A DNA stretch of 8,387 nucleotides from Bacteroidales bacterium (GTDB taxonomy: Bacteria > Bacteroidota > Bacteroidia > Bacteroidales > UBA10428), in NCBI GenBank assembly GCA_016935595.1, contig JAFGQQ010000332.1, positions 1 to 8,387 on the forward strand. The letters are read 5' to 3'. Positions 1,814 through 4,497 of this stretch are shown here, one piece after another. A program made the translations under genes and the position numbers. The notes under the pieces were generated by a model. That model searched no databases and was not told the origin of the DNA. It was given only the letters and a program-made list of their open reading frames with translations. Position 1 is the first letter of the stretch, and the number at the start of each line of letters is the position of its first letter.

Positions 1814-1834
1814 GCCTGCCTGCAGCAGGCAGGC
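1814..1834. repeat. GC-rich palindrome, copy 1
   Basis: The arms GCCTGCCTGC (1814-1823) and GCAGGCAGGC (1825-1834) are perfect reverse complements around a single A. It stands out as a block of very high GC in AT-rich surroundings. A related copy lies inside wecB at 2961-2983 and shares the first ten bases exactly, which marks both as members of one dispersed palindromic repeat family. Confidence 0.85.
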
Positions 1835-1906
1835 AACAAAAACCACTATCTAAAAAATAAAAATATAAATAACTGATATTAAGCAGTTTAATTAAAACAT
1901 ATTCAC

Positions 1907-3064
1907 ATGAAAATCATTTCAGTAGTCGGAGCACGTCCAAACTTCATGAAAATTGCCCCATTTATCAGGGCCATTCAACATTCAACATTCAACATTCAGC
2001 ATTTGCTAGTGCATACAGGTCAGCATTACGACGACCGGATGTCTTTAAAATTTTTTAAGGATTTAGGAATTCCGGAAGCTGATATTAACTTGGGTGTTGG
2101 TTCAGGCACACATGCCGAACAGGTTGGACAAACCATGATAGAATTTGAAAAAGTCCTCCAAAAGGAAAGACCCGACTGGGTGGTTGTTGTTGGAGATGTA
2201 AATGCTACCCTGGCTTGTTCAGTCACAGCTAAAAAAGAACATATTAAATGCTGCCATATTGAAGCTGGACTCAGATCGGGTGATATGACCATGCCTGAAG
2301 AAATAAACAGGCTCGTAACAGATCGGCTTTGCGACCTGCTGCTCACACCCGATAAATTATCAATTGAAAATCTTAAAAAGGAAGGGGTTGAAAATTTTAA
2401 AATCAAATTTGTCGGCAATATAATGATTGACACGCTTGAAGCAAACCGGGCAAAAGCAGAAAAATTAAATGTCGAAGATATCATTAAAACAAATGCCATA
2501 CACAATATCCACGATATTCAGCATTTAAACAAATATGCACTAATGACACTCCATCGCCCTTCAAATGTCGACCATGAAGAAGTATTGAAATCTTTGGTAA
2601 CTTTTATTCACGAGCATGTTTCACAAGATATTAAACTGATATGGACAATCCATCCACGTGCTAAAAAACAATTGGAATTATATAAACTATGGGATTCCTT
2701 GCTAAAAAACAAAAATATAATTCTGTTACATCCCCTGGGATATCACGATATGTTAAGGTTAAATATGGATGCAACCATCATGCTAACCGATAGTGGTGGT
2801 TTACAGGAAGAATGCACAATTCTTGGCACACCTTGTTTGACTCTTCGATGGAATACCGAAAGGCCAATAACTTTGAAAGAACACGGAGGAGCATCTGTTT
2901 TAGTAGGCAATAATATAGATAGAATTCGTAAAGAATTTATCAATACATTAAAAGAAAACCGCCTGCCTGCCGGCCAGGCAGGTAAATCCCACCGGCCTGA
3001 ATTGTGGGATGGACATACTGCAGAAAGATGTTTGCAGGCTATTCTTAACTATCATCCCGAATAA
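1907..3064 (+). CDS. wecB: UDP-N-acetylglucosamine 2-epimerase (non-hydrolysing)
   Basis: A cytoplasmic enzyme that interconverts UDP-GlcNAc and UDP-ManNAc, supplying ManNAc-type sugars for surface glycans. At 385 residues it is full length for the family. Visible motifs: GARPNFMKIAPF (8-19), HTGQHYD (36-42), VVGDVNATLAC (95-104), HIEAGLRSGD (117-126), PEEINRLVTDR (130-140), LHRPSN (215-220), WTIHPR (246-251), DSGGLQEE (295-302) and LWDGHTAER (366-374). By analogy with E. coli WecB, D97, E119, E131 and H216 should be catalytic, and the late DSGGLQEE stretch binds the nucleotide. ATG 1907 starts directly at the conserved MKIISVVGARP. It is followed after 8 nt by the DUF354 gene, a common pairing. 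The gene carries repeat-derived segments: heptamer sequence at residues 22-33 and probably 197-207, and a GC palindrome read as RLPAGQAG at 352-359. All are in frame and no key residue is lost, so it is probably active. Confidence 0.95.
   Translation: MKIISVVGARPNFMKIAPFIRAIQHSTFNIQHLLVHTGQHYDDRMSLKFFKDLGIPEADINLGVGSGTHAEQVGQTMIEFEKVLQKERPDWVVVVGDVNATLACSVTAKKEHIKCCHIEAGLRSGDMTMPEEINRLVTDRLCDLLLTPDKLSIENLKKEGVENFKIKFVGNIMIDTLEANRAKAEKLNVEDIIKTNAIHNIHDIQHLNKYALMTLHRPSNVDHEEVLKSLVTFIHEHVSQDIKLIWTIHPRAKKQLELYKLWDSLLKNKNIILLHPLGYHDMLRLNMDATIMLTDSGGLQEECTILGTPCLTLRWNTERPITLKEHGGASVLVGNNIDRIRKEFINTLKENRLPAGQAGKSHRPELWDGHTAERCLQAILNYHPE
1972..2006. repeat. Heptanucleotide tandem repeat CATTCAA inside wecB
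   Basis: Three exact CATTCAA units (1972, 1979, 1986) are followed by CATTCAG (1993) and the decayed CATTTGC (2000). It is translated as IQHSTFNIQHL (residues 23-33), just before the conserved HTGQHYD. Because 3 x 7 nt equals seven codons, the array keeps the frame after every third unit. Confidence 0.85.
2961..2983. repeat. GC-rich palindrome, copy 2, in frame in wecB
   Basis: The arms CCTGCCTG (2962-2969) and CAGGCAGG (2975-2982) surround a 5-nt CCGGC centre. It begins with the same ten bases as the copy at 1814. It is read as RLPAGQAG between a helix ending INTLKEN and the conserved KSHRPELWDGHTAER tail, a place where WecB proteins normally have no such peptide. The family is thus an in-frame insertable mini-element. 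Confidence 0.8.
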
Positions 3065-4173: not shown

Positions 4174-4225
4174 CAATTTTATTAATCGGTTACATAAAAG
4201 AACCTAAATCACAAGCTAATATATC

Positions 4226-4430
4226 CTAATGACCAATAACTAATTACTAATGTCCTATTTAAAATGAAGTGGCAGTAGCAGTCGGCAGTTGCAGTATATA
4301 TAAATTATACAAAGCAAAATTAACCAATGACTAATGATCAATTTAAACAGAGAATAGCAGTGGCAGAAGACAGTAGCATAAAAAATTAATAATATCTCAT
4401 AACTATATTCCAATAACCAATGACAAACAT
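4226..4430. repeat. Dispersed heptamer clusters CTAATGA/CCAATAA mixed with GGCAGT repeats
   Basis: Almost all of this gene gap is repeat sequence. Heptamer clusters of the CTAATGA/CCAATAA type lie at 4226-4255 (four units in phase), 4324-4344 (CCAATGA, CTAATGA, TCAATTT) and 4396-4430 (five units, two of them clear). Between them sit two clusters of GGCAGT-type repeats, 4271-4296 (GGCAGTA, GCAGTC, GGCAGTT, GCAGTA, so an effective 13-bp period) and 4356-4378. The two families alternate along the gap. No ORF, RNA gene or terminator is seen here. Confidence 0.8.
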
Positions 4431-4497
4431 CGTATTACCAACTATCCCCGTCAAAACTTCTTTTCAAAAATAAATTTCCTTTTTTTCTTTTCCCGAT

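Follow-up and report, generated by a model that had tools for sequence, protein, structure and literature searches.

A short palindrome upstream of and in frame within wecB probably belongs to a hairpin mini-element of Bacteroidota

The closest described counterparts of the element reported here are REPs, which PMC3733652 divides into GTAG and CGTC super-families, some lying within genes (uvrA among the hosts) and some within other palindromes. According to the same source, RPE-4 and RPE-6 of the Rickettsia palindromic elements (RPEs) are CGTC repeats, and RPE-1 is longer than the element studied here. In organelles, the mitochondrial GC clusters, the Allomyces double-hairpin elements and the sponge RHE are dispersed hairpins that are optional between relatives and merge, the Allomyces elements having no flanking duplications, according to PMC2800124, PMC4478555 and PMC7218506. 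Our literature search on LPAGQAG-like peptides, the palindrome and related topics found no description among the titles and abstracts that it listed, most subscription papers being outside its coverage.

The window analysed here is a stretch of 8,387 nucleotides from a Bacteroidales bacterium (assembly GCA_016935595.1, contig JAFGQQ010000332.1); other genomes and loci are given by our own numbers (G and L). By profile matches, the window contains an AAA ATPase gene, wecB, a DUF354 gene and a sugar transferase gene. The features under study are the following.

1814..1834, no strand assigned: intergenic copy, a perfect 21-nt palindrome, GCCTGCCTGCAGCAGGCAGGC (DNA fold)
1907..3064, + strand: wecB, the invaded gene, encoding a non-hydrolysing UDP-N-acetylglucosamine 2-epimerase (TIGR00236 at 298.7 bits, above the cut-off; PF02350)
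2962..2982, no strand assigned: in-gene copy, a 21-nt near-perfect palindrome, CCTGCCTGCCGGCCAGGCAGG, inside wecB (DNA fold)
2963..2983, + strand: seven extra WecB codons, LPAGQAG, residues 353-359 (homologue alignment)

An earlier note on this DNA had proposed that the same GC-rich palindrome lies both upstream of wecB and within it, and we confirmed this at 1814-1834 and 2962-2982. The limits given for the first copy hold, but the inner copy, which the note had placed at 2961-2983, is best set at 2962-2982; likewise the stem is common to both copies, but the loops differ (CAG in the first, CCGGC in the second). By DNA folding, the intergenic copy, separated from the wecB start by 72 nt, forms 9 bp with a 3-nt loop (-10.2 kcal/mol), and the in-gene copy forms 8 bp with a 5-nt loop (-8.5 kcal/mol). 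Allowing at most one mismatch, CCTGCCTGC matched the window five times against 0.33 expected, a number reached in none of 200 shuffles. The 19-nt core with the loop of the intergenic copy was found again in G037, once upstream of wecB there (L057:3827).

Other repetitive or structured stretches were seen in the window: a tandem TCACATTTCACATC-like array at 1491-1540, downstream of the ATPase gene; a 52-nt hairpin at 1725-1776 with 21-nt perfect arms (-19 kcal/mol as DNA, z -10), either a terminator or another small element; and low-complexity CCAATAACCAATGACTAAT-like and GGCAGTAGCAGT-like stretches at 4220-4440, between the DUF354 gene and the sugar transferase gene.

The inner copy had been said to add RLPAGQAG to WecB without breaking the frame. 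The frame is indeed kept, but the addition comprises seven residues (L353-G359) and not eight, R352 being ancestral; LPAGQAG sits between R352 and K360, near the conserved LWDGHTAER tail, as the note had it, which occupies residues 366-374 after the insert. Using the best 120 of 7999 scored WecB homologues, we found the insert columns empty, at the protein level, in 119 of the 119 closest listed, none of which carries the residues that the note had allowed might be present in all of them. Across the insert site the closest relatives read KENR-KP-HRPELWDG, and the WecB loci closest to the window's are mostly from named Bacteroidales or Bacteroidetes. Removal of the 21-nt palindrome would leave CG|T AAA, arginine and lysine, matching these relatives; the element would have entered the arginine codon after its second base, adding LPAGQAG to a flexible loop. 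In an AlphaFold2 model (mean pLDDT 75.2, from an alignment of 17 rows), residues 354-362 have pLDDT below 50 and lie between helices 337-349 and 371-380. Apart from the insert, wecB is intact, its product presumably working. The 5' end of the gene also has tandem ATTCAAC units (window 1973-2000); the residues that they encode, IQHSTFNIQH, fall in a loop that differs from homologue to homologue, which makes the units a possible second, simple-repeat source of coding sequence in wecB.

Across genomes, the unit consists of an 8-bp stem, CCTGCCTG/CAGGCAGG, and a loop of 3-5 nt, for a total of 19-21 nt; the 121 bacterial strict elements measure 20 nt in 65 cases, 19 nt in 31 and 21 nt in 25. Among 48 genomes reached through 49 of 80 WecB loci, strict copies occur in 16, at 35 places, and the reversed pattern at none. 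Related genomes thus carry the palindrome at scattered places; a lack of further copies in the genome was what the note had allowed might speak against its reading. In a wider set of 395 Bacteroidota genomes, 55 carry strict copies (at most 18 per genome) against 4 for the reversed control, and 46 of the 58 control places lie in G280, where the loci inspected show a different palindrome with GTAG beside it. That other palindrome, of 20-21 nt and the form GGACGGAC...GTCCGTCC (L360-L369), has 46 copies in G280 and 10 in G165. A looser pattern applied to six genomes, with overlaps counted, gave 292 (G031), 37 (G037), 5, 5, 6 and 4 forward matches and none for the control. The family of G366 has copies in 26 of 61 genomes, with up to 19 strict copies in one. 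Assembly error is an unlikely source, since the length of some carrier contigs is about that stated for the whole genome (G366, 3.86 Mb; G101, 2.59 Mb; G298, 4.5 Mb).

Most copies in the sampled genomes fall outside recognisable genes, and few elements of G031 (396 kb) lie within ORFs of at least 100 aa, taken mechanically. A viral collection yielded 33 stretches with the 20-mer, the ORFs there being mostly spurious-looking. Other repeats frequently enclose copies; a 20-mer of G031 lies exactly within a second one, and at five loci of G509 (L378-L382) the palindrome occurs repeatedly within one longer composite repeat (TCTGAGC-like ... TTGTCGAAG).

An empty paralogue was found for 14 of 88 distinct elements, some of the 88 having flanks too short for this search, and the joined flanks match without gaps near the junction. 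The best pair (L165:277 and L164) is 98.8% identical over 81 nt; others are L159:17723 and L164 (98.3% over 59 nt), L106:1231 and L154 (96.9% over 65 nt), and L192:1115 and L107 (96.3% over 54 nt). In the clearest pairs the palindrome is the sole insertion at the site, with no target duplication, while the weaker empty sites involve tandem-like repeats (L004, L114, L118) or identities of 78-80% (L104, L159:19193, L163:664). At sites with an empty paralogue, insertion is exact and occurs without target duplication. The flanks of 156 elements gave no target consensus beyond a rarity of A at the first outer base; GA stands on one side in 24 of the 156. A preference for hairpin loops as targets was considered and rejected: among 158 joined empty sites, unpaired junctions were not in excess in predicted folds (p 0.22).

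Slippage and fold-back template switching can produce short palindromes, and on that account each copy would have been made in place, with no mobile unit. A weak G+C periodicity in the flanks is consistent with this. However, many genomes have this one sequence inserted at sites unrelated to each other, while fold-back would duplicate what lies nearby, and the reversed palindrome is rare. Loops are also alike within genomes: pairs with the same loop make up 0.347 of within-genome pairs against 0.160 when permuted, a value as high being reached in none of 5000 permutations. The loop tends to be genome-typical, and the elements are amplified within genomes. We consider an origin in place very improbable.

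The earlier note had mentioned PAGQAG- or PAGRQA-like peptides from unrelated proteins and had proposed a protein-invading palindromic mini-element. These peptides are real, since in-frame copies encode LPAGQAG, LPVRQAG, CLSGRQ, LPAGRQ and similar peptides in unrelated conserved proteins, and the proposal is supported by in-frame copies in WecB, an SNF transporter, DUF2400 and five further genes of G366. All six frames of the window copy are free of stop codons, so that a protein loop can accommodate a 21-nt copy (or a 20-nt copy plus one base); among 40 strict sequence variants, 14 are interrupted by a stop in at least one frame. The in-frame copies checked measure 21 nt in 5 of 5 cases against 25 of 121 overall, a comparison confounded by the mostly 21-nt copies of the family of G366. 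One in-frame exception to 21 nt is L392, in the PurL gene of G366, where a 20-nt copy keeps the frame through one extra base, with A on both sides, a possible 1-bp duplication.

G366, a single contig, has 15 strict copies, of which six lie in frame within recognisable genes (DUF2400, PBP1C, UvrA, NAD_binding_10, penicillin amidase and PurL, by Pfam) and two more (L278, L389) precede every domain of an amidohydrolase and an amylase and may lie upstream of where translation really starts. Aligned with 7eby, the penicillin amidase shows its insert as a clean gap of seven residues; for UvrA and PurL, alignment with solved structures is ambiguous at the insert. By mechanical count, elements lie in ORFs in 19 of 112 (loose), 29 of 81 and 8 of 26 cases in three sets, and 18 such ORFs were compared with Pfam, L217, L251, L328, L372 and L375 giving no match. 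In L243 the first domain comes after the element, and the true start may do so too; in L395 the element follows all domains.

Two protein families give a view of how the insert varies among relatives; in both, insert DNA was examined for the query rows and the other rows are read at the protein level, where decayed inserts (SQSTGLAG, IPG) may be unrelated indels. The SNF transporter of G224 (L266) has relatives of 93% and 90% identity without the insert. Among 113 SNF rows (8 of 121, whose loop pattern did not match, were left out of the tree), the loop is longer at one site in 20, LPAGQAG-like residues stand three positions beyond that site in 5, and 88 show neither feature. On a quick tree, the insert changes at least 14 times over these two sites, against a mean of 23.5 for shuffled labels, and the "no insert" state changes 13 times, 6 of these forced by starred branches. 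As the insert is clustered beyond shuffled labels, part of its spread is inheritance. In DUF2400 (L281) the insert occurs at one position in 11 of 106 scoreable rows, query included, 15 of 121 rows being unscored.

Could the insert have been selected for a function, the added peptide or an mRNA hairpin regulating WecB? The kept frame and the second copy upstream of wecB would fit. Yet similar peptides turn up in unrelated proteins, the checked genes using two reading frames, the WecB insert lies in a low-confidence loop of the model, and the insert comes and goes in SNF transporters; we give selected function hardly any credence.

As to what moves the element, one possibility is a REP hairpin that a RAYT (Y1 HUH) transposase mobilises or once mobilised, the untagged copies being a tagless or degenerate form. 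The earlier note had pointed to a REP-type Y1 transposase as something to look for, and in related genomes the outcome was divided. On the positive side, GTAGAGTC precedes five of eight strict copies in G150 and GTAGG precedes a sixth, and at L422 of this genome a RAYT-like frame of 174 aa stands between two hairpins that are tagged with GTAGAATC and have CCTGCCTGC/GCAGGCAGG arms. G244 has four tagged places, three of them strict. In some genomes the hairpin is therefore a GTAG REP. RAYT is the best named candidate mover because the hairpins of G150 and G244 are GTAG-tagged and the RAYT-like gene of G150 is flanked by them. A Y1 gene also stands between untagged strict copies in G300 (L344), Y1_Tnp matches are more numerous in 34 carriers than in 34 hand-picked non-carriers that are not lineage-matched (median 3 against 2, p 0.028), and intragenic REPs are described in PMC3733652.

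Against this, tags are close to or below chance outside G150 and G244: GTAG lies within 3 nt of 2 of 121 elements (3.4 when shuffled) and CGTC also of 2, and within 12 nt of 147 elements GTAG was found 6 times (shuffled 12.2) and CGTC 12 times (shuffled 10.2). The window's two copies have neither tag; as the REP tag is absent, we class them not as GTAG REPs but as a tagless variant. Among 99 Y1 loci scanned, strict copies occur in one (L344) and loose copies in five (L192, L344, L352, L402, L422). The association with carriers is weak: Y1_Tnp is present in 27 of the 34 carriers and 20 of the 34 non-carriers (p 0.11), 7 carriers have no Y1 match (including G244 and G101, whose 2.59-Mb contig has four copies), G079 has 18 copies and one marginal Y1 match, and copy number does not track Y1 number (rho 0.21, p 0.23). 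The GTAG form may be the ancestor of the untagged family, or one type of enzyme may move both; a REP hairpin mobilised by RAYT is a real possibility, although we would not call it probable. A Y1-like frame in L192 (G037) begins with a member of the family, an imperfect palindrome of 22 nt, which is read as MPACRQ.

A different route would lead through repair, the hairpin being captured to fill the ends of breaks made by endonucleases, particularly the GIY-YIG enzymes of tRNA cassettes. At L084, L248, L274, L312, L269 and L323, a partial copy of a tRNA contains the palindrome, and the intact tRNA stands no more than about 500 bases away; such copies provide additional empty sites. L163 has a nested form, and L238 (an IMG/VR contig) is a similar case. 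A GIY-YIG frame follows the tRNA fragment in L084, L238, L274 and L312, and 7 of 158 strict elements have such a frame at most 200 bp away. Junctions fall in tRNA-like sequence in 8 of 121 cases (two of them short matches of 15-20 nt) against 224 of 20000 non-ORF positions (ARAGORN), a background drawn partly from loci chosen for elements. GIY-YIG matches number a median of 9 in carriers against 3 in the same hand-picked non-carriers (p 1.2e-5), and intron endonucleases have been proposed for yeast mitochondrial GC clusters, as PMC4478555 describes. Most copies, however, lie far from any GIY-YIG frame, and copy number does not track GIY-YIG number (rho 0.13, p 0.47); we regard capture at endonuclease breaks as unlikely.

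The cassettes at L084, L238, L274, L312, L248 and L269 combine a partial copy of a tRNA with a small GIY-YIG frame and an intact tRNA (none by ARAGORN in L238), and have the appearance of independent tRNA-directed mobile genes. In G308 (C1:120132-122327; L269, L453, L457, L461), five GIY-YIG matches follow one another in 450-bp steps, with a palindrome in a tRNA-Leu-like fragment per unit. On an IMG/VR contig (L231:2239-2330), ARAGORN calls a whole 92-nt tRNA-Met with the palindrome in its variable region.

We think it very likely that the window palindromes are copies of a non-autonomous Bacteroidota hairpin mini-element, spread as a hairpin by a trans-acting enzyme. Copies would spread within a genome from a resident template; an enzyme acting in trans, with a RAYT like the one next to the tagged hairpins of G150 as the best named candidate, would join a single-stranded hairpin to other DNA; and the seven or so added residues would then be inherited, decay or be lost.

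Such an element resembles REPs as PMC3733652 presents them, that is, short multicopy hairpins, mostly intergenic, some in genes (again including uvrA) and some nested. It agrees with the definition of REPs as multicopy palindromes of 20-40 bp, here at 19-21 nt and up to 19 strict copies per genome, and in G150 and G244 it bears the GTAG tag, in G150 beside a RAYT-like gene. Unlike REPs, the window's and most other copies have no GTAG or CGTC tag, few Y1 genes adjoin the hairpin, and the element also sits in partial tRNA copies. MITEs are likewise non-autonomous inverted-repeat units, but have separate terminal repeats and are far longer than 19-21 nt; the element here is far shorter, without separate terminal repeats, and its best filled and empty pairs show no target-site duplication, L392 with its possible 1-bp duplication aside. 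With RPEs it shares in-frame palindromic insertion into unrelated proteins (WecB, SNF, DUF2400 and the five further G366 genes), whereas RPE-1 is longer, a comparison by description (PMC3733652). The mitochondrial elements are alike in habit only, as dispersed optional hairpins; they belong to organelles rather than bacterial genomes and are longer, yeast GC42 having 42 nt and an AG target (PMC2800124, PMC4478555 and PMC7218506).

A bolder version, which we put forward as speculation and rather doubt, is a tagless nano-element of 19-21 nt that split from GTAG REPs, spreads across Bacteroidota without tag or target duplication, enters proteins repeatedly in frame at the same codons, and settles in the decoy tRNA copies that GIY-YIG cassettes make, endonuclease breaks being perhaps its way in. 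If true, it would be among the smallest mobile units in bacteria. Genomes with both a GTAG tag and a RAYT (G150), set beside genomes with neither, make the question of the mover directly testable. Insertion of the palindrome explains LPAGQAG-like loops in environmental proteins, and, with filled and empty versions of genes among relatives, provides a countable bacterial case of non-coding repeats becoming protein sequence.
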